Of a DNA stretch of 64,000 bases, positions 19,954 to 36,469 are shown piece by piece (position 1 is the stretch's first letter; each line of letters starts with the position of its first letter). The position numbers were made by a program, and so were the translations under genes. This DNA is from Candidatus Calescibacterium sp. (GTDB taxonomy: Bacteria > Calescibacteriota > Calescibacteriia > Calescibacteriales > Calescibacteriaceae): positions 62,001-126,000 of the forward strand of contig JANXBU010000004.1 of assembly GCA_025060505.1 (NCBI GenBank), read 5' to 3'. Below the pieces are notes generated by a model, which had not been told where the DNA came from, made no database searches, and saw only the letters and a list, made by a program, of their open reading frames with translations.

Positions 19954-22900
19954 CTACCTTGAGATATTTGAAGTACCGTCAGAATTAAGCCTTACCCTAT
20001 AAATCGTTCCATCTGCATCCTGCACCTCGCCACTCCCCGATCCATCCGGTAAAACCAAATATCTTCCTCTTATAAACCTTCCATCAAGAGTTACAAGATC
20101 AACACTGAAAGACATTGAACCATCCTCCTGAGAGTCTCCTTTAATCAAAAATGTTCCGTCCGCGCTCACAAATCTTCCAGACATTTCTGATTTACCGGTT
20201 CCTTTGTAATTGCTCACCTTCATCGTTCCCTCCAATCCCTTGTCAGTTCCCCTAATCTTCAAGTCAAATGATTGTTTGGTCGAGTCCTCAGCAAAATCAA
20301 AAACTTCAATATCTGTTTTCTTCTGATCATCACAACCGTATATTGAACAAGACCTGAAATCTGCCTTTGCCTTCTGCGAACATAAATTATAAGATGAACT
20401 TTTCCTATCTCCTCTTATGTATTCATATCCATCCTTCACCTTTTTTATACTTACAAATTCCCCTGTTTTTGCATTAACGATCTTCAAACAGTATCCCGCA
20501 ATCTCATCGGATTTATACTCTGGTGCTCCAAATAACAGGCCCTGACATTTATCAAAACCCTCACAGCTTCCATATCCTGAAAGAGAACAGTTCGACTTTA
20601 TGAACTTTTCTAAATCTTCTCCTTTTTGTGGGCAAGAATCTATCTTGCAAATACCGAGTTCCACATTACACCTTATTCCAGATGTAGCTTGTGAAACGTA
20701 GGTCACCGGTCTATCTATCAGAGATTCATCCACACTACAGTATGCAACCGCAGATGAGCCATCCGGCTTTATAATAGCTATGGTGATCCTACGAGATGTC
20801 CTGAAGTCACTTGGCAAAATAGATATAATGATTTCTTCCTTCTTATCGTTGTCAAAATCACCTCTCCAGCAGGTTTTTCCACCCTCAAGATAGCCTGAAT
20901 CCTGCCACTTGCATCCGGAAGGATTACAATCAAATGAGCATTCTTTTCCTTCGTAAAATTTGCAGTTACCTGCTTGACACTCTGATTTTCTTGCTCTGCC
21001 ATCTCTCTTTACAGCCACAGAATATCGCTGACCACCACAAGCTCCACTGATAATTTTACTCGGAACACCATCTGTTTCAAAATTGTTCTGCACACAAGAC
21101 TGGTAAGGTTCTCCAGCTTTACCGTTGCCAGTGTATGAACCAACATTTTTCATATCGCATGTAGAAATAATTGATTCAATGTATTCTATAGCTTGATCTA
21201 TCGAGTATCCAAAATCTTTACAAGAAGAAGCTGGGAACTTACATTTACCTTTTCCAACCTCAGCGGAGGACATATAATTGTAACACTGACCCTCACCGAA
21301 ACACATAGTAATCATAAGATAATTACCTTCCCCGTATATGTTTTTTCCAACCCAGATATCAATTGAAAATCCATCTTTCTGCTTGATATAAAAGCCATCA
21401 GGCTTTCCATCTTTGTTCCAGTCTATAAGGTAACAACTGTTGTAGTTATCCCATTTTACTCCGGAACCCTCGTAGTTGGTCTTGCAAGAAGATATAAGAT
21501 TTTTCAAATAATCCTGATTCCCACTACAAGCAAGATCCTTTATGAAACCCCTATCTATATTTGAGCAACTGTATTCAGCTATGGTACAATCCATTTTATT
21601 ATAGTAAGAGCAAGAGTCAACATATACTTTGCCCTCAGATATATCTACTTTGTACTCTCTCTCTTGAGAAGAGTACTTGTATGAGATCTCCGATTTTAAA
21701 GCATCATACGAACACTTATCACCAGAACTTATGTGAGTTATGTTGCAATCCTTTGTAATACTGTTCAGATAATTCTCGAACACATCACATCCTAGATTCT
21801 TTACAAATCTATCATCCATACCGGAACAAGAATATTTAGTGAAAACACAGCTACTGCCCTGATTAGAGCATGAAACCTCTTCTACTTTGCCCACAGCCAC
21901 ACTGATTCTCCTTCCACCACCAGCAGTAGAGTACCTGTAAGAAATCCCCGGATTCAAAGCGTCATACGAACAAACTTTTCCTTCCGGATATCCTGAACTA
22001 TAACTTCCACCCTCTATTGAGCAGTTTTGTGTAAGACTTCGTAAAAAAGAATTAATACTCTGATAGTCATACATATTTACACAGCTCAAATTTGGCATCG
22101 GCTTGCATCTTAATCTAACAGAAGCGTTTTTTGAACCAGAAATAAAGTTTATATCAATTTTACCCTGATCATGGTCAGCAGATAAAAACACATCACAAGT
22201 TACGGAAGAACTGAATATCTTTGAAAATTCACAAGATGGTAGGTTGGAAAACTTTATGAAATCTACTTTGCTATCTTGATTACTGTCAGATGATGAACAT
22301 ATGCCTCCCTGACAGTAGTTGTCTAATATAGATTCAAAATCGTCATCATATCTATGACAACTTATTTTTATCCATTCATGATCTGGGACCTGACAGATAC
22401 GTTCAATCAAGGTACACTGTGTATATCCTTGTCCAAAACAAAAACTTTCCCTAGCAGTTGTCCGGTTTATTGTAATATAGCGTGTCGCCGAAGAACCATA
22501 AACAGAGTATGAGACACTTTGAGCATCATTCTCAATCAAACAGTAATTCATAACTTCATCTGGATCAGTTTCAGTATTGGTATAACTCACATTTTCTACG
22601 GAACAGTAGTACAAGAGCCCTTGCAAAAATGACCAGAAATCTAGGTCATTGTGTTTTCCACAGCAGCAGTTGAGATTAGGCAATGAAGTACACAAAAGAG
22701 AAACAGATGCATAATCCACCCCAGATATGAAAACAACGTCAACCCTGTTGGAGCCAACAATAAATACAGATACGGTACAGCCTTGATGAAAATTATTCCT
22801 GAAATAGAACATGTAATGTGGATGATAGTAAAGTGCAGAAGTAACATATTTTGGGAAATTACAATGAAAACCAGACAGTTGAACAAAATTTACACTTTCA

Positions 22901-23079
22901 GGCTTTCCATCGTTGTTATAGTCGCATTCGCTACATTTTCCAATGGAAGAGCAACTACTTGCCTGCTTTTCTCCAAGTCTCGGAGCAGAAAGAAATGGAC
23001 AATAGCCTGATTGCGAAAGATAATTCAGTCTTGGCGCCGTTTGAGGCTGTATCCTTCCTGTAACCATTTGATCGCTCAA
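19954..23079 (-). CDS. Giant Cys-rich modular protein with repeated units and D-x-N-x-DG motifs
   Basis: 1041-aa ORF; repeats such as CSYDALNPGISYRYS.../CSYDALKSEISYKYS..., SCSGMDDRFVKNLGC/SCSNIDRGFIKDLAC; Ca-loop-like YNNDGKPE, DWNKDGKPDG, DFDNDKKEE. Exact start uncertain. Confidence 0.75.
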   Translation of the reverse strand: MSDQMVTGRIQPQTAPRLNYLSQSGYCPFLSAPRLGEKQASSCSSIGKCSECDYNNDGKPESVNFVQLSGFHCNFPKYVTSALYYHPHYMFYFRNNFHQGCTVSVFIVGSNRVDVVFISGVDYASVSLLCTSLPNLNCCCGKHNDLDFWSFLQGLLYYCSVENVSYTNTETDPDEVMNYCLIENDAQSVSYSVYGSSATRYITINRTTARESFCFGQGYTQCTLIERICQVPDHEWIKISCHRYDDDFESILDNYCQGGICSSSDSNQDSKVDFIKFSNLPSCEFSKIFSSSVTCDVFLSADHDQGKIDINFISGSKNASVRLRCKPMPNLSCVNMYDYQSINSFLRSLTQNCSIEGGSYSSGYPEGKVCSYDALNPGISYRYSTAGGGRRISVAVGKVEEVSCSNQGSSCVFTKYSCSGMDDRFVKNLGCDVFENYLNSITKDCNITHISSGDKCSYDALKSEISYKYSSQEREYKVDISEGKVYVDSCSYYNKMDCTIAEYSCSNIDRGFIKDLACSGNQDYLKNLISSCKTNYEGSGVKWDNYNSCYLIDWNKDGKPDGFYIKQKDGFSIDIWVGKNIYGEGNYLMITMCFGEGQCYNYMSSAEVGKGKCKFPASSCKDFGYSIDQAIEYIESIISTCDMKNVGSYTGNGKAGEPYQSCVQNNFETDGVPSKIISGACGGQRYSVAVKRDGRARKSECQAGNCKFYEGKECSFDCNPSGCKWQDSGYLEGGKTCWRGDFDNDKKEEIIISILPSDFRTSRRITIAIIKPDGSSAVAYCSVDESLIDRPVTYVSQATSGIRCNVELGICKIDSCPQKGEDLEKFIKSNCSLSGYGSCEGFDKCQGLLFGAPEYKSDEIAGYCLKIVNAKTGEFVSIKKVKDGYEYIRGDRKSSSYNLCSQKAKADFRSCSIYGCDDQKKTDIEVFDFAEDSTKQSFDLKIRGTDKGLEGTMKVSNYKGTGKSEMSGRFVSADGTFLIKGDSQEDGSMSFSVDLVTLDGRFIRGRYLVLPDGSGSGEVQDADGTIYRVRLNSDGTSNISR

Positions 23080-23527: not shown

Positions 23528-26409
23528 ATGAATACAGTTCAGAGGGATAGATATACAAAAAAATAATGGCGTTTTTCTTGTTGTTGATCAGCTCAAGAGC
23601 TTTTGCTGAAGAGATATGCCCGGTTCCATCGACAGGTAGCATAGGAACAACAACTTTCTCAACATTCTTTGATTTTGGCTTCCGTTTTGATCCTGAAGAT
23701 ATAACCACAGCAGTTAAAGTGATAAATAGGACATCAAATAGCAGGGTTTCTCCAGCTCTCAGGGGTTGGGTTGATCTACATACTCATCCTATGGCTCACC
23801 TTGGCTTTGGACGCAGAGTATTCCATGGAGCTCCAGATGTTGACATTCTTATGCCGCACCCCCGGGGAGATTGTAAAGGATTATACAGACCAACAACTCC
23901 GGAACAGGCACTCCATAACTGCAATTATACACACGGCGGATGGGGATTTGATAACGGGTGTGGAAATCATATCCGCGCTATAGTAATTAACCACGCACTT
24001 GATAGCAAATTTCGCGAAGATTGGGGAGGTAGCGGTAATGTACACGGAGATCATCACCATCATGGTTTGAGCGAAGGACTTCCTTTTTGGCCTCATCATA
24101 GCTCAAAACTTCATCAGCAGATGTGGTGGGAATGGTTAAAGAGAGCAAGAGACGGAGGACTCAGAGTAATCGTAGCTCTTACGGTAAACAATGAGTTACT
24201 GGCAAGAATAACAAACGGCGATCCACCATTTGATGACAAATCTGTTGCAGATATGCAGATAGATGAAACTATAAGATTTGTAAGAAGACACCAAGATTTT
24301 ATGGAAATCGCCTACTCCGCCGCTGATCTAAGACGCATAGTGAGCCAGAACAAAATAGCAGTCATATTAGGTATGGAAGTAGATAAATGGGGAAACTTCG
24401 GAGCCGGAGTAGAGCCAACTGAAGAAGCTGTGGTTCAGGAAATAATAAGACTATATCGAAAAGGTGTAAGATACTTCTTCCCAGTGCATCTTATAGATAA
24501 CCCATTTTCTGGAACAGCACTATACAATTATCTGTTCGCCCTAGTCAATAAACGTCTAAATGGATACTGGCCAGAACTTGAATTAAGCGCAGATACGCGG
24601 ATCAACTTTAATTTTGGATCTGTTGGCGCGCTAGGTGCTATAGAACGATTTGCCGAAATAGGACAGTTCTTCCCTGGTCCGTATGGAGCTATCTCAAAAG
24701 CTATTATGGATACGGTCCGTGCCATTATTATAGGCCTTGAACACGCGCCCGGATGTGTTGAATGGCCATTTGAATGTGTCGTACCTGGAGCTGCTTTTTT
24801 TCCACATACATGTTGTCCTGAGCCTTTTGGTTTTCTAAAATGTTGTGCAGAGTACAGAGAGATAAAGAGAGTTCTTGAGGATCTTCCTCCACCTCACTAT
24901 ATAACTAGCGGAGGCGTGATAAACAGACGTGGGCTAAGCGATATAGGAAGAGTAGCTATATTTGAGATGATGAAGCTCGGTATGCTTATAGATATTGACC
25001 ACATGTCTCTGAAGGCTCAGCGAGATACAATTGCTTTCGTAAGAGGTTTCGGAGGCTACCCACTTATAATGGGACACAACAATATTATCAAACCAGAGTT
25101 AGGCAGAGAAAGAGATGCTCTCCCAGAGATTGTAAGAGAAATAAGCGAAATGGGCGGTATGTTCGGTATAGGAACCGTTCATTCTACCCCGGGGGAGTTT
25201 ATAAGGCGATTTAAAGCTGCTTGGGAGGCTATGGGGAGACGCGCAGTAGCTATAGGTTCAGATGTGAACGGCTTTGAAACACTACCACACCACGAACGTC
25301 CCAAAACCAGACAAAGCTCCCACGAATTCTATACAGATTTCTTTGCTACATATCCATACATCCTATCACCAGGTTTAACAGCAGCAAACGTTGAAGAATT
25401 CAAAAGACAATTCCCAGCAATTACAACAATAGACAGTACACCAACCGGTGCAAGACTTAACAGAAGAACCTTCAGTCCAAATATGTGGGACTACATAGCA
25501 GAAGGTGGAGTATCACATTATGGCCTTATGCCCGAATTTCTTTTTGATGTTTACCGACAAGGAAGAGAAGGAATGGAAGTAATAGAGGCTTTGATGAACT
25601 CAGCGGAATACCTTGCCCAAACATGGGAGACAGCAGAAAGAAGAGCAAGAGAAATTCTTGGAGTATCGGCGGAAGGAAGAGGCACAATCACTGTTAATCT
25701 ACCCCCAATAGAAAACCTATGCCCCTACGGAAATCCTAATCGGGGTGATAGAGAATTTGATGGTCACGGACCGAGAATTATAATGACAGTATCTGTTGAA
25801 GTCTACCCACGCGATAGAAGATATCTACAAGCTACTGTTCGCTTTAGAGCAGAAGAAACTACACACGACTGGTCTACCATACAGAAAGAATGGACAATAG
25901 ATACTTTTGGTCCTCCAGCACCACCTGGAACAGTTTATCATAGAGTCGTGGGCGAAAGCGGCAGCTCAATAGACGTAGTACTGCATGGACATAACTGCCG
26001 ACACGAAATTATTCCACGCTCCGGTCCAGTTGCAAAAATTATACTTGTTGGAGATACAATGGGAACCGATATTAATGAAGATCCAAACTGTGCCGATTGT
26101 GATGATACTCGAATTGTAAGAATTGAATTCAGACCAATACAAGTGGAAGTCGGTCCTCCGGGGGAAAGACCGTTTGAAGGTATGAGAACAAGAGATCGAT
26201 ATATGTACGGTCAGATAGATGGAGCAAACTCCGGAAACAATTCTGAGCAAAATTCCGAAAGCGGATTAGAAACTAGTTCATATGCGAATAAGAATTACGG
26301 TTGTTCTATATTCTCCTTTGGCTCTATATCATCTGCTATACTGTTTTCAATCATCATACTGTACATGCTAATGAGAAAAAGGAAAAGTATATTCAAGCAA
26401 AAAATATAG
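23528..26409 (+). CDS. M19 (membrane dipeptidase)-like surface protein with C-terminal GC + TM tag; apparent frameshift in A7 run near the signal peptide
   Basis: GWVDLHTHPM, VILGMEVDKWGNFG, LIDIDHMSLKAQRD, PLIMGHNN, AIGSDVNGFE match M19 metal-ligand blocks; SD AAGGAGGAG + ATG at 23528 is out of frame with the body by 1 nt. Uninterrupted ORF is 23566..26409. Confidence 0.75.
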
Positions 26410-29275: not shown

Positions 29276-31003
29276 TTATGATTCCATATGGTTGAGTAAT
29301 TCCTTATAATATGGATAGCCACTTGTTAATTCTTTTACTTCATTCTTAACAGAGTTTATAACATTGCTATCAAATTTTGAAGCTATGACCTTATTTATAA
29401 GCTGTACTATCTTTCTTGCTTCTTCTTCTTTCATACCACGTGTTGTTATTGCAGCAGTTCCAACCCTTATTCCAGAAGGATTCATCGGAGGTCTCTGATC
29501 AAATGGTATGACATTCTTGTTCAAAACTATTCCAGAGTTGTACAGGGCAGACTCAACTTCGGCACCACTAACACCTTTTGGAGTTACATCAACCAAAACT
29601 ATATGTGAATCTGTACCACCCGTAATGACATTATATCCAAGTTTCAGAAATTCATCGGCCATCGCTCTTGCATTTCTTATAACTTGTGTGCAGTAATCTT
29701 TGAAATCATCCTCCATTGCTTCTTTGAAAGCCACAGCTTTTGAAGCTATAACATGCATAAATGGTCCGCCTTGTGAGCCCGGAAATACGGCAGAGTCTAT
29801 TTTTTTCGCATGTTCAGACTTTGAAAGAATCACAGCTCCACGCGGTCCCCTTAATGTTTTATGAGTAGTAAACGTAACAAAGTCTGCAAACGGAGTTGGG
29901 TTCGGAAATACCCCAGCAGCAGCGAGTCCAGCTGGATGAGCAATATCTGCCAAAAAGTAAGCTCCAACTTCCTTTGCTATTTCAGAAAAAGCTCTGAAAT
30001 CTATTGCTCTTGGATACGATGAAGCTCCAGCTATTATTATCTTCGGTCTCTCCCTCAAAGCGATCTCCCTGACCTCGTTCATATCTATCAGATGAGTCTG
30101 TTTGCTCACAGTGTATGAAACAGATTTATATATTTTTCCAGAGAAATTAACTTTTGCTCCATGAGAAAGATGTCCGCCAGATGAGAGATCAAATCCTAAT
30201 ATTTTATCTCCAGCTTCACAAAAAGCTAAATAGACCGCCTGATTTGCCTGAGTTCCAGAGTGTGGTTGAACATTAGCGTGTTCCGCCGAAAACAGTCTCT
30301 TCACCCGTTCTCGTGCAATTTCCTCAACCTGATCAACAAACTCACATCCCCCATAGTATCTCTTTCCGGGATATCCCTCCGCGTACTTGTTATTCATCGG
30401 ATTGAACAGAGCGATGAGCGATCTCAAAGAAATCATGTTTTCAGAAGCTATCAGATTTATCATATATTCCTGTTTCTTAATCTCACCAACGATAGCTGAA
30501 AAAACCTCCGGATCAAATTTTCTCAGGGAAGAAAAATATGGAAAAGCAGATTCCAAAATCTCTCTTTCTATGTCTGCTATTTTTTCTACTCTTTTTCTGT
30601 GTCTTGAATCCGAACTGAAAGACGACTCCATAAAAGTCTTCAGAAGTTCCTTCACATACTCAAAATCGAAAATTCTACCAGAGAAAGCTAAAAGATTTGC
30701 GTCATTATGCATTCTTGACATTCGTGCTGTGTACTCGTTGAATATCAAAGCTGCTCTTACACCAGGGAACTTGTTTGCAACTATAGACATTCCAATACCA
30801 GTTCCACATATAAGAACCCCAAAATCCGCTTTCCTCAAGCTTATCTCCTTTGCAACGGCAGAAGCTATATCTGGATAATCTGCAGAGTTGGTAGAAAAAA
30901 CCCCTTTATCTTCACAAATCACACCTATTTCATCAAAGTATTTTTTTACCTTCTCCTTCAACTCAAAACCAGCATGATCTGAACCTATTACAACACGAGT
31001 CAT
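29276..31003 (-). CDS. Fusion: ribose-5-phosphate isomerase B (RpiB) + serine hydroxymethyltransferase (GlyA)
   Basis: N-term MTRVVIGSDHAGFELKEKV...LICGTGIGMSIVANKFPGVRAAL; C-term MINLIASENMIS...EGYPGKRYYGG...FTTHKTLRGPRGA...; one uninterrupted 575-aa frame. Confidence 0.95.
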   Translation of the reverse strand: MTRVVIGSDHAGFELKEKVKKYFDEIGVICEDKGVFSTNSADYPDIASAVAKEISLRKADFGVLICGTGIGMSIVANKFPGVRAALIFNEYTARMSRMHNDANLLAFSGRIFDFEYVKELLKTFMESSFSSDSRHRKRVEKIADIEREILESAFPYFSSLRKFDPEVFSAIVGEIKKQEYMINLIASENMISLRSLIALFNPMNNKYAEGYPGKRYYGGCEFVDQVEEIARERVKRLFSAEHANVQPHSGTQANQAVYLAFCEAGDKILGFDLSSGGHLSHGAKVNFSGKIYKSVSYTVSKQTHLIDMNEVREIALRERPKIIIAGASSYPRAIDFRAFSEIAKEVGAYFLADIAHPAGLAAAGVFPNPTPFADFVTFTTHKTLRGPRGAVILSKSEHAKKIDSAVFPGSQGGPFMHVIASKAVAFKEAMEDDFKDYCTQVIRNARAMADEFLKLGYNVITGGTDSHIVLVDVTPKGVSGAEVESALYNSGIVLNKNVIPFDQRPPMNPSGIRVGTAAITTRGMKEEEARKIVQLINKVIASKFDSNVINSVKNEVKELTSGYPYYKELLNHMES

Positions 31004-31098: not shown

Positions 31099-31704
31099 CT
31101 AAGTTTTATGAGCTGGTTTAGTATCCAAAAATACTCTGAATATGTAAGGATTCAGTATAACCCATATTTTTTTATCTAACTCCACTTCAACAAAAGGTAT
31201 GTTGATACCCTGAAAAAGTATTTCTATTTCGTTTCCAAATGTTTCTTCACCTTCAACAAAAACAGATGTTATTTCAGATGAAACTTTTTTCTTACCAACC
31301 TCTTTCCATTCACAAACAGCTGGTCCGATTTCCTCAAATTTGAAAGGTATAGTGAATCCAAGTTCAGTTTTAAGTTTTTCTATCTCCTTTTCTCTCTCCT
31401 TCCACTCCTCATCCTGGTATTCAGTTGGTAAACATCTGAAAACCTTTATTTCTCTTTCTTTCTTCAAGATTGAAATTTTTACTGGCTTCTTATTATTCAG
31501 AGATTCCCTGAGTATATCTGAAAAAACTGAAGCAAACAATCTAGCGTCAGACTTTGCTTTTTCCTGAGAAACAAAAGGCAAAGAAGGGAAAACCAATCCT
31601 AAAAAAAGTGATATAATTCCCAAAACAATAGCTAACTCTATCAATGTAAATGAGCGAAAAACTTTGGAAGTAGGAACATTTCTGCAACATTTCACCAATT
31701 TCAT
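31099..31704 (-). CDS. GspH-like type II secretion pseudopilin
   Basis: RSFTLIELAIVLGIISLFLGLVFPSLPF class III/prepilin N-terminus; next to the GspG-like gene. Confidence 0.78.
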   Translation of the reverse strand: MKLVKCCRNVPTSKVFRSFTLIELAIVLGIISLFLGLVFPSLPFVSQEKAKSDARLFASVFSDILRESLNNKKPVKISILKKEREIKVFRCLPTEYQDEEWKEREKEIEKLKTELGFTIPFKFEEIGPAVCEWKEVGKKKVSSEITSVFVEGEETFGNEIEILFQGINIPFVEVELDKKIWVILNPYIFRVFLDTKPAHKT

Positions 31705-31749: not shown

Positions 31750-32145
31750 TTATTGCGCAACCTGAGATTCTGTAGATATATCATCTTGCGTTCCGATTGA
31801 TTTATCTGGACCAGCCGATTTCAGTGTAAAAGTCTTACCGTCTGAAACATAGTAATACTCGCTTCCCCACGGATCCTTTGGAATTTCCTTTCCCTTGAGA
31901 TATCCACCCTTAACAAGTGATCCTACGCCCTCATCTGTAGTTGGATATCTTCCCTGCTCCATTTTATACAATTCAAGAGCTTGCTCTATCATACTTATTT
32001 GGGTCTTCGCTGTTCTTTCTCTCGCTCTTTCAAAATATCTTACAACATTTATACCTACAAGTCCTGCCAAAAGTCCCACAATAAGAACAACAACCATTAT
32101 CTCTATCAATGTAAATGCTTTCATCTTTCTATTCTTCCTTTCCAT
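31750..32145 (-). CDS. gspG: Type II secretion major pseudopilin GspG
   Basis: MKAFTLIEIMVVVLIVGLLAGLVGINVVRYFERARERTAKTQISMIEQALELYKMEQGRYPTTDEGVGSLV...PKDPWGSEYYYVSDGKTFTLKSAGPDKSIGTQDDI. Confidence 0.95.
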   Translation of the reverse strand: MERKNRKMKAFTLIEIMVVVLIVGLLAGLVGINVVRYFERARERTAKTQISMIEQALELYKMEQGRYPTTDEGVGSLVKGGYLKGKEIPKDPWGSEYYYVSDGKTFTLKSAGPDKSIGTQDDISTESQVAQ

Positions 32146-32413
32146 AATAAAAAATATAAAAACTAAGAAACAAAAATGTGAATAGATAGTAAAATGTTTA
32201 ATAGAACATTTCATAGAGCTGTGAATTGAAAAAAATGATTACTCATTATACTTTTTCTCATCTTCTTCTCCAGAGATAATGCTTCAGAGATTTCAAAGAC
32301 AAGATTTACTCTGACAGAGGTTACATTGAAGGGAGGGTTGTAGGTTCGGACAGTTTTACTTTATTTTTTGTATTTATTTTTTTGAAATTTTGAATGAAAG
32401 GAATGAGAAAGAG

Positions 32414-32443: not shown

Positions 32444-35400
32444 TTATCCGTTAATCCTTCTTCTTATGATAGCTAATGAAATCATCACACCTGCGAATAC
32501 AATCCAGGAAACAGAGGCAGTAGAACAACCAAGTATTCCTGCATTTTCTGTTACAAAGAATCTGTGTGTATATTGTGATATATTTCCTACATCATCTTTT
32601 GCTTTTATCTTCAGAATATGTTCACCTTTTGAGAGTCCGCTAAGTTCTATTGATGTAAGCTCATTAGCCGGAACCCACTGTGACCACTCTCCATCATCTA
32701 CAGCATAAGATACGAGAACCTGATCGGCCGAAGCCTGTGCGTCCTTCACATCTGCAAAGAATACTGCTTTAGAACCTCTTACTACCTCTGGAGCAGTTAC
32801 ATTTATATCTGGACCAAGCGAATCGACTCTGAATACAAACTTAGCCGGAGTTGGATCTATAAGTTTTTCTCCATCCTTTGCTCTAACCTCAAAGACATGC
32901 CATCCCTCTAGCAGGTGTGTTAGAACAACGGAATTTTCTTCAGACCAAAGGTTCCATGTTCCACCATCAAGCCTCCATGAGTATCTTACCTTGTCTGAGT
33001 TTGGAGACCAACCGGAAAACTCTATTCTTGTATAAAGTGCACTTGGATCTGATGTATGCGTTATGAATGTTTCAGGTGGTGTTATCATTTTTCCATTGCC
33101 ATTGACAGTGTAATCAGCAAACCTAACATTCATTGGAACACCCGGAGCAAGACCAGCTATACTACCAATTGTGTCAACAAGGTCAATACCAAGACCGTTG
33201 AGGAGTTTTACTATATTACCAAATGTTGGTCTTCCACGCCAATGTATAAACATTTCAAAGTAGTCTCCTATACCATCTGTTGTTGCACCAGGCGCATTGT
33301 GTGGGAACGCGGTATCCCAGGGCAGATTACCAAACTCAGGGCCAACCCACGGGAAGTTGAATTCCATAGGTATCTGTAGTAAAGCAGCAGGATCAAGTGC
33401 AACTCTTAGCTTTGCTCCAGCGAGTCCGTTAAGAACAACCGGGAGGATATTTCCAAGTATCTCTGCCCAGTTTGAACCAGAAAGTCCCAAAGCATTAGAG
33501 TTGTATGCAATGAAGTATCTCACATCTGGATCAACATATAGTGTGAGATCTATAACTCTTGCAAATGTTCCTCCCTGTGGGAAGTAGTTTCCACCTCTAT
33601 CCGTGGTCTGACCAGTGTAATAGTTCCTGTAGAATGATGTTAGAGGTTGCGAAAAGTCAGTAGAGTCTATATTCGGGAACCTCACAGTTCGTGCACAATC
33701 TGGTGAAACACAAGGGACTATATCTATATCAACAGAAAGCATCAGACCAACCGTTAATCCAAATACTCTCATCCAATTGTGGTTTGCATTAGTAATATTT
33801 CCTGTTGTTACAACATTAAACGAAAGGTCTATGTATGGAAGGTCTATTAGCAAATCAGCTGTATCGAACCATGTTGTTGGTGAAACAAACATTGTGAATC
33901 CACTTCCAAATGTCGCATTCTGTACAAATTGATCCCAGAAGTTATTTCTTGTTGAACCTGTAGAGTATACGGAGAGAACTGGTCTGAATGTAGGTCCTCC
34001 GGTTTTTGAATATGCCACAACCGATAGCGGTCTATTATACGTTGCAGCTCCACCGCTATTACCAGAAGGAGAACCAGGATCTTTGTAGTTTGGTATTATC
34101 TCGATTGCCATTTCCTTGTTTGGGAATGAGTCTTTGAGTTTTGGCATAAAGAAAGCAAAAGAATCTGTATTTAAGAATCCACCTGCAAAGCTTCCAAGCA
34201 TTGGTGTATATTTGTCCACCCATATACAAGCTATACCGTCTCCAACAACTTCGTATAATATTCTTGATACAAGGTTATGGTGTATTCCTACTCCAACATA
34301 GTAATTTGTTACAGAATATCCATATCTACCTTCTGCAAGTGTTGGTGCCACTGGATACTGCGGTAAGAACTGCGAGGAGAAGACATGTGGGAACTGTCCG
34401 TTATTTGCGTTAAGATTACCTGTACATTGAGCAACGGTTCTTATAGTTGACGGACAACCTGTTTGAGGAACACACTCTCTTATAGGAATGATCTGGCTTG
34501 TTGCAGCCTTAGGCATAGGAGTAGCAAACTGAACACAGGATGTAACGTATTGATTGAAGCTTGCTCTCTTCACGTCTGAGAGGCTCGTAGCAGAAGAGTT
34601 CCATATAACATACCTTATATCTGTTGCAACATTCATTGCCAAAAGAATTCCCGCCGAATCTGCCCAAAAGTCATTAGTGAATCCGAGATCTATGAATATC
34701 TTATTTGGTTTATGCTCATAGTATGTAGTAGCTCCAACATAAACTACTTCTTCCATAGGATGTTCTATTGGGTTCAAAGATTCAAGTATATCTTTCAAGT
34801 CAAAAACCTGACCCGGGAACAAGAAGTATGCTATACAAGTATCGTACTGATTCACCGTAGTTTTTCCGCTTACACAGCTTACATTAAAGTTATCAATTGC
34901 AATCAATCTCAAAACAGCATCAAGCCATAACAATGTTCTTGCAACCTTCTGTGAAACTCTGTATTCTGGACAGTACTGCGCTGATCCTACTGTGTTCCAA
35001 GCAATGTTTCTGCAAGCAGGAGTAGTTACAGAGGCAGCCATTGGAATCATATCATAAGCTATTCCTGCAATGACATCCAAACCTTTCAAGTTTATACCAA
35101 GACCTCTTACGACCTGCGCCCAATCTGTATGGTCTGTGAAATTACCCTTAATTTGGATTCCAAGCCTTAAGCCCAAAATCGGTATCCTTAAATAAACTCT
35201 ACCATTTACATAGTTTGATATAACACGGGATTCATCATATGTGAATGTTGTATTATTTGGCGTCTCCCACTGTGGATCACATATATGCCTGTCATTTATG
35301 GCGTCTCTATTCTTGAAACAATATGAAAGAGCGTTGGGGAAAGAAGTTACACCAGGGTTAAATTGACAAACATTTCCCACCCAAACACAATCTACATATC

Positions 35401-36469
35401 TTGTCTGCGAATCAACATAAGGAGACGAAAATGTCAGTGCAAGCTCAAAGTTTCTCAGCTCAACTGATATATCAAGTCTATCATCTGATGTATGTTCTGT
35501 AAGATCTCCTTCACAAGTTGCAGTTGCAGGGTAGTCCGTTCCTATATCTTCGTTTAATCTTACCGTAACAGCATCTCTTTTGTAATCAACAATTAGCCTA
35601 TTATAGGTCACTCGGTCTAAGAAGAAAAATGGATCCCAGCTTTGTGGAGGCGATATAGGACAAAATGTATTAGCATTATCTAATCCACATTTTCCAAATG
35701 GTCTCCATGACCATCCACCCATTGCAAACGTTATCGGATTTGAAGATGTTCCAACTCTTTTATCTCTTTCCTGTCCCCATATCACACCATTCAAACATAT
35801 AGGAGCTCCTTCATCGTTTAGAAGAGGAATCGGTAAACACAAAGAAATAAGTCCTTTTCCATCATCTTTACACTGATTAGTTCCTTCATCCCAAGTTCCA
35901 GTTGGGTTATATCCTGCTATATATTCAAAGTAAATATCATTACCGAAACAGTGAGTGACTCCTTCTCCAAGGCTAAAATTCGGAGCAGTTGTTGTTATAC
36001 CACATGCAGCAGTCGAGTTATTCCAGTAATATGAATATGTTGGATTATTTGGATAGTTATTTGTAAGCCATTCTTGAAATTCTTGTAAGTTATCCCAGAA
36101 ATCTGCAACAACCTTAGTGTCTGTACATCTGTCAAGAAATGTCATAGCCAAGTAATTAACAAGATTTGCAACCGACGGATCTCCGGAAAGAATATCTGAT
36201 ATAAGTTCTCCGATCTCGTTTAAACCAGATTTTGTAAGTCTTACAACAACGTTGTGCTTTTCAAACTGGTTTCTGTAAAGAATAGAAGTAACACCATCAA
36301 GTCCTCCCCAGGTAATCGGATTTCTAAAACCGGCTGAATATGGGTTAGCTGATGTTTCATTAAGACTCCTCCTTCTTTGAGCAGATGCGTCTGAGACAAA
36401 GATAAGAACAAGACCTACAAAGAATGAAAAGACCGCAAAAGCCCTTGCCTTCTTTATTATACCTGCCAT
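32444..36469 (-). CDS. Large exported protein with BPI/LBP (TULIP)-like segments, C-terminal Ig/Y_Y_Y-like domains and GC + TM tag
   Basis: Start at MAGIIKKARAFAVFSFFVGLVLIFVSDASAQ with SD GGGAGG; NVVVRLTKSGLNEIGELISDIL; VGVGIHHNLVSRILYEVV...LNTDSFAFFMPKLKDSFPNKEMAIEIIP; C-term LGCSTASVSWIVFAGVMISLAIIRRRING. Track ORF starts at 36577. Confidence 0.75.
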   Translation of the reverse strand: MAGIIKKARAFAVFSFFVGLVLIFVSDASAQRRRSLNETSANPYSAGFRNPITWGGLDGVTSILYRNQFEKHNVVVRLTKSGLNEIGELISDILSGDPSVANLVNYLAMTFLDRCTDTKVVADFWDNLQEFQEWLTNNYPNNPTYSYYWNNSTAACGITTTAPNFSLGEGVTHCFGNDIYFEYIAGYNPTGTWDEGTNQCKDDGKGLISLCLPIPLLNDEGAPICLNGVIWGQERDKRVGTSSNPITFAMGGWSWRPFGKCGLDNANTFCPISPPQSWDPFFFLDRVTYNRLIVDYKRDAVTVRLNEDIGTDYPATATCEGDLTEHTSDDRLDISVELRNFELALTFSSPYVDSQTRYVDCVWVGNVCQFNPGVTSFPNALSYCFKNRDAINDRHICDPQWETPNNTTFTYDESRVISNYVNGRVYLRIPILGLRLGIQIKGNFTDHTDWAQVVRGLGINLKGLDVIAGIAYDMIPMAASVTTPACRNIAWNTVGSAQYCPEYRVSQKVARTLLWLDAVLRLIAIDNFNVSCVSGKTTVNQYDTCIAYFLFPGQVFDLKDILESLNPIEHPMEEVVYVGATTYYEHKPNKIFIDLGFTNDFWADSAGILLAMNVATDIRYVIWNSSATSLSDVKRASFNQYVTSCVQFATPMPKAATSQIIPIRECVPQTGCPSTIRTVAQCTGNLNANNGQFPHVFSSQFLPQYPVAPTLAEGRYGYSVTNYYVGVGIHHNLVSRILYEVVGDGIACIWVDKYTPMLGSFAGGFLNTDSFAFFMPKLKDSFPNKEMAIEIIPNYKDPGSPSGNSGGAATYNRPLSVVAYSKTGGPTFRPVLSVYSTGSTRNNFWDQFVQNATFGSGFTMFVSPTTWFDTADLLIDLPYIDLSFNVVTTGNITNANHNWMRVFGLTVGLMLSVDIDIVPCVSPDCARTVRFPNIDSTDFSQPLTSFYRNYYTGQTTDRGGNYFPQGGTFARVIDLTLYVDPDVRYFIAYNSNALGLSGSNWAEILGNILPVVLNGLAGAKLRVALDPAALLQIPMEFNFPWVGPEFGNLPWDTAFPHNAPGATTDGIGDYFEMFIHWRGRPTFGNIVKLLNGLGIDLVDTIGSIAGLAPGVPMNVRFADYTVNGNGKMITPPETFITHTSDPSALYTRIEFSGWSPNSDKVRYSWRLDGGTWNLWSEENSVVLTHLLEGWHVFEVRAKDGEKLIDPTPAKFVFRVDSLGPDINVTAPEVVRGSKAVFFADVKDAQASADQVLVSYAVDDGEWSQWVPANELTSIELSGLSKGEHILKIKAKDDVGNISQYTHRFFVTENAGILGCSTASVSWIVFAGVMISLAIIRRRING

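Follow-up and report, generated by a model that had tools for sequence, protein, structure and literature searches.

Does a bacterial gene encode a surface counterpart of animal BPI and LBP, which in human blood bind bacterial lipids, and if so, what would such a protein do there? The question arises from a locus of the hot-spring bacterium Candidatus Calescibacterium sp., within a 64,000-nt stretch (the window) of contig JANXBU010000004.1 (GCA_025060505.1), whose positions serve as coordinates throughout unless another locus is named. Bacterial TULIPs are already known; the ones described, YceB, DUF4403 and P47 among them, show a relationship to BPI that is barely within reach of detection, and the origin of the BPI/LBP pseudo-dimer is an open question (PMC6791001; PMC5507252). 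No description of the window's BPI-like family was found in the literature searched, which consisted of open-licence papers.

The gene and its orthologues

The gene is preceded by an AGGGAGG ribosome-binding site upstream of its ATG start, and its product consists of a signal peptide, an ectodomain of about 1100 residues, two Ig/PKD/Y_Y_Y-like domains and a MYXO-CTERM-like tail (Table 1). A preliminary description of this DNA had proposed a BPI/LBP-like surface protein at 34075-36253; translation places all the segments that it quoted in the same frame of one gene, but the gene extends further, over 32444-36469 on the minus strand. Orthologues about 70% identical are encoded in four further genomes of the Calescibacterium family, and an equally similar one (~70%) in a Candidatus Calescibacterium nevadense record, which may equal one of those four assemblies. 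The five orthologues share every one of the 25 cysteines, of which 24 lie in the ectodomain and the last in the tail.

The signal peptide, read from the sequence without a prediction program, has a positive N-region, a hydrophobic stretch and an AxA-like end. The region before the tail matches PKD (E 6.6e-5) and Y_Y_Y (E 8e-4), both under the Pfam cut-offs, and this Ig/PKD-like pair is proposed to be a stalk or presentation module. Elsewhere in the window, on the minus strand, a 575-aa ORF (29276-31003) appears by eye to be a fusion of a ribose-5-phosphate isomerase B-like N-terminal part with a serine hydroxymethyltransferase-like remainder.

Table 1. Positions of the BPI-like gene, its predicted parts, the segments quoted in the preliminary description and the two genes downstream
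Feature	Residues	Window position	Strand	Basis
BPI-like surface protein, whole gene, 1341 aa	1-1341	32444..36469	-	ORF, RBS, orthologues
Signal peptide, MAGIIKKARAFAVFSFFVGLVLIFVSDASA	1-30	36380..36469	-	read by eye from sequence
Probable N-terminal TULIP barrel with large Cys-rich insertions	69-716	34322..36265	-	profile matches
Quoted segment FEKHN..SDIL	69-94	36188..36265	-	translation
Claimed echo, first member	614-632	34574..34630	-	translation
C-terminal TULIP barrel, BPI/LBP C-domain homologue	717-1077	33239..34321	-	profile matches
Quoted segment VGVGIHH..WVD	725-752	34214..34297	-	translation
Quoted segment LNTDSF..YKDP	766-798	34076..34174	-	translation
Claimed echo, second member	979-997	33479..33535	-	translation
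Two Ig/PKD/Y_Y_Y-like domains	~1129-1303	32561..33085	-	sub-cut-off Pfam matches
MYXO-CTERM-like sorting tail, AGILGC(1315)STAS, transmembrane stretch, RRR		32447..32536	-	Cys conservation
gspG, type II secretion major pseudopilin, next gene downstream		31750..32214	-	T2SSG E 2.5e-21
gspH-like minor pseudopilin		31099..31704	-	N-terminal methylation motif

Homology of the C-terminal domain to that of BPI and LBP

Searched directly, the window protein and two of its orthologues gave no match at E<=10 to the Pfam LBP/BPI/CETP models (PF01273/PF02886), and phmmer searches of the PDB with the window protein or one compact relative returned no TULIP match. Distant relatives were obtained by whole-genome searches, and their best-conserved stretch coincides with the middle segment singled out in the preliminary description, the second and third segments quoted there being the best-conserved part of the family across phyla. 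Two C-region profiles were compared: A2, built from 18 C-regions of the window family, and A4, built from compact relatives of about 520 aa together with others that carry the same domain pair. Neither A4 nor the corresponding N-region profile, A5, includes the window protein.

Among 177,635 distinct PDB sequences, the sole protein that A2 retrieved was human BPI, in two entries, with E 0.11 and the match lying at BPI 291-318. The top PDB matches of A4 are human BPI (255-429, E 7.7e-8) and LBP (255-465, E 1.5e-7), and A2 and A4 align with each other in hhalign at a probability of 99.3% and E 2e-20. A4 also scores the window protein itself, at 25.0 bits over residues 721-794, the best of 1000 shuffles reaching 6.9. 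Two relatives exceed the cut-off of the Pfam model LBP_BPI_CETP_C, L071 with E 6e-9 and L092 with E 1.5e-8 over profile positions 40-234 of 238, and the model matches several others at the homologous place, under its cut-off. Because those two pass, some relatives would already bear the LBP_BPI_CETP_C label in databases. By these profile comparisons the predicted C-terminal barrel is established as a homologue of the BPI/LBP C-domain, through relatives and with significant E-values, as had been suspected from the middle segments; the TULIP match that profile comparison had been expected to return was thereby obtained.

The N-terminal half and the fold

The N-terminal half is less conspicuous. 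In the PDB, A5 has human BPI 2-213 as its top match (E 2e-6), followed by LBP (7e-5) and then BPIFA1 (PLUNC), and A6, the profile of the window family's own N-region, has a sole credible match, the LBP N-domain at 107-198 (E 0.0034). Weak matches in the relatives place an N-domain before a C-domain, the order seen in BPI. In a profile-profile alignment (E 0.0004, probability 36%), the N-terminal motif to which the preliminary description had drawn attention falls on the beginning of the N-domain of the compact BPI-like proteins, which is suggestive. A8, the N-barrel core without this start motif, matches neither the PDB nor A5, so that support for the N-barrel is only moderate; the large Cys-rich insertions may conceal a signal there. 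The profile chain through the relatives, and those among them that pass Pfam's cut-off, give the C-barrel good support and make a TULIP barrel in the N-terminal half probable.

An internal echo between the two halves, which had also been claimed, found no significant support. The best local alignment of the N-half with the C-half scores 42, a value equalled by 161 of 500 shuffles, and it does not include the claimed segments. In BPI itself, too, sequence comparison hardly reveals that the two halves are homologous (PMC6791001).

AlphaFold2 models of residues 32-1126 and ~712-1124, each built from three sequences, reached pLDDT values of 26 and 28 and speak neither for nor against the fold, which therefore rests on homology and not on a model. 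A large beta-rich adhesin, only locally similar to BPI and not of TULIP fold, could also carry Ig/PKD-like domains, escape every direct Pfam TULIP match, reach BPI directly at no better than E 0.11 and yield no usable structure model. This reading is given the smallest probability of those weighed here: the profile chain from A2 through A4 to BPI/LBP has E-values of 2e-20 and 8e-8, the latter across the whole C-domain, no competing fold was returned, and two relatives lie over Pfam's cut-off.

Sorting tail, protease and export

In Myxococcus xanthus, proteins with a MYXO-CTERM tail undergo processing of that tail by myxosortase and travel to the surface through the type II secretion system, T2SS (PMC11980579). 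The tail of the BPI-like protein has the same three parts, with Cys1315, present in five of five orthologues, followed by a hydrophobic stretch and a basic end. In the genomes of the family, the TIGR03901 (MYXO-CTERM) model reaches at best 16 bits against a cut-off of 20, a score given solely by the tails of the orthologues from G001 and G003, and it finds nothing in the window's own genome (G000). Each of the five genomes encodes exactly one CPBP/Rce1-type protease. In the window's genome this enzyme retains both the EExxxR and the HxxxN motif, and it scores best against myxosortase models, always below their cut-offs: Mrt_core with 97 of 100 bits, MrtP with E 5.8e-29, and likewise MrtC and MrtX. 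The order TULIP-gspG-gspH is kept in four of the five genomes.

The likeness to the MYXO-CTERM/myxosortase system (PMC11980579) thus covers a tripartite tail with an invariant cysteine, a CPBP glutamic protease and the T2SS, while the host lies outside the Myxococcota, the tail stays under the TIGR03901 cut-off and the protease passes no equivalog model. Since the tail, the myxosortase-like protease and the adjacent gspG-gspH pair occur together, the BPI-like protein is likely to be lipid-anchored at the surface, with lipidation at the tail cysteine as a putative step. Together with the signal peptide, they support the surface location proposed in the preliminary description.

Similar ends occur on other proteins. 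A protein of 947 aa that contains a Peptidase_M19 (dipeptidase) domain, encoded at 23566-26406 on the plus strand of the window, ends in a comparable tail (YGCSIFSFG, a transmembrane stretch and RKRK), and the sorting tail therefore seems to serve several proteins. Six members of the TULIP family without a transmembrane segment, from four genomes including the window's own, end two to four residues past the tail cysteine (L056 6138-10079, L057 5409-8042, L058 4192-6816, L097 2523-6386, L053 90-3275 and L101 1959-5156). Their ends read FGCGK, FGCQAR, FGCSSYK, FSCIAN, FFGCVQVP and WGCTQVPY, and no transmembrane helix of the usual type is encoded in any frame just downstream. To judge from their sequences, these ends look like a ready-cut, CaaX-like version of the sorting tail.

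Distribution, paralogues and neighbouring genes

Relatives that carry the C-domain are spread over at least four phylum-level groups beyond that of the window, often several per genome; viral contigs searched for more family sequences yielded none. The window's genome holds two more TULIP paralogues, C49 (L059 4798-11382) and C22 (at L056, listed above), with open frames of 2195 aa and 1314 aa, the longer one containing 97 cysteines. Seven genomes, from five families other than that of Calescibacterium, share a conserved arrangement in which the gene for a BPI-like CTERM protein precedes those for one or two beta-propeller (BNR-like) lipoproteins of about 400-680 aa, homologues of one another that amount to 14 distinct genes (loci L045, L048, L049, L050, L052, L053, L054, L055 and L060). 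Behind other paralogues lie genes for larger lipoproteins, some of which match PKD or, weakly, LVIVD.

No such beta-propeller gene neighbours the window gene or its orthologues, and in four of the five gspG-gspH takes that place; no gene for an uptake partner adjoins the BPI-like gene. The stretch 19957-23079 (minus strand) encodes a repeat protein of 1041 aa, very rich in cysteine, for which a weak FG-GAP match was the only one. It was considered as the missing propeller partner and set aside, as phmmer searches with the partner proteins did not find it.

These surroundings bear on two further readings. The protein might serve the envelope of its own cell, shuttling or buffering LPS or phospholipid of the outer membrane and not collecting lipid from outside: the gene adjoins the housekeeping gene atpA and is present in all five family genomes, and the bacterial TULIPs YceB and DUF4403 have been placed in the diderm envelope (PMC6791001). 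Such a role is unlikely, as the signal peptide, the CTERM-like tail and the T2SS adjacency point outside the cell, and the Ig/PKD-like stalk, the many Cys-rich insertions and the several paralogues per genome resemble surface equipment. It is considerably less probable still that the BPI fold acts as a weapon or shield, binding the LPS of competitors or neutralising hydrophobic toxins. Hot-spring streamer communities are dense, which would suit such a use. Animal BPI and LBP, for their part, bind LPS (PMC5507252). Around the window gene, however, nothing could be recognised as an immunity, toxin or defence gene, and the gene order indicates secretion machinery, not conflict.

Proposed function

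With a probability of roughly 0.7, the gene encodes a surface-displayed, pseudo-dimeric TULIP of the BPI/LBP type that is exported by the T2SS, anchored on a stalk and captures a hydrophobic ligand for uptake. The protein would be exported by the Sec pathway and folded in the periplasm with disulfides among its 24 ectodomain cysteines. A lipid would then be attached at Cys1315 and the tail removed by the genome's single CPBP/myxosortase-like protease, after which type II secretion, whose pseudopilin genes adjoin, would carry the protein across the outer membrane to be anchored at the cell surface on its Ig/PKD-like stalk. There the two tubular barrels may accommodate a hydrophobic ligand, whether a lipid or another compound, supplied by the medium or by adjacent cells, and would most likely capture it and hand it over for uptake. 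The protein's role is most likely surface binding of such a ligand. That binding would serve acquisition is probable because the Calescamantes are heterotrophic diderms that carry genes for beta-oxidation (PMC4791363).

Comparison with known TULIP proteins

With animal BPI and LBP (PDB 1EWF, 1BP1, 4M4D; PF01273 and PF02886) the window protein shares a probable N-C domain order, predicted export and a C-domain including the L-x-T..F..P.L...P segment, matched through the compact relatives. It differs from them in being three times longer, in its Cys-rich insertions, Ig/PKD-like stalk and bacterial surface-anchor tail, and in falling itself under the Pfam thresholds. Among bacterial proteins, DUF4403 is a tandem (pseudo-dimeric) TULIP proposed as a full-length BPI homologue (Levine 2019, PMC6791001); the window family is probably likewise a tandem TULIP in bacteria, with a different length, anchor and setting. 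YceB/DUF1439, DUF2140, DUF2993 and P47/OrfX2, the last with domains that pack side by side (PMC6791001), likewise have the TULIP fold in bacteria, and are set apart from the window family by a Pfam scan. The Pfam models DUF4403, YceB, DUF2140, DUF2993 and P47 had no match among the window protein, its orthologues and the relatives scanned.

Implications

The BPI/LBP-type design for handling lipids is far more widely spread in bacteria than the literature searched describes. Ordinary profile HMMs derived from bacterial proteins of several phyla retrieve human BPI and LBP across both domains, and the origin of the pseudo-dimer therefore becomes testable by trees and structures. It is a possibility rather than an expectation that these pseudo-dimeric TULIPs of many bacterial phyla are the nearest known prokaryotic kin of animal BPI, LBP and CETP, and that their long form is a CTERM-anchored, T2SS-exported surface module for lipid handling, paired with a beta-propeller lipoprotein. 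The occurrence of the same architecture on apparently surface-sorted proteins suggests that several poorly known phyla possess a lipid-handling layer external to the outer membrane.
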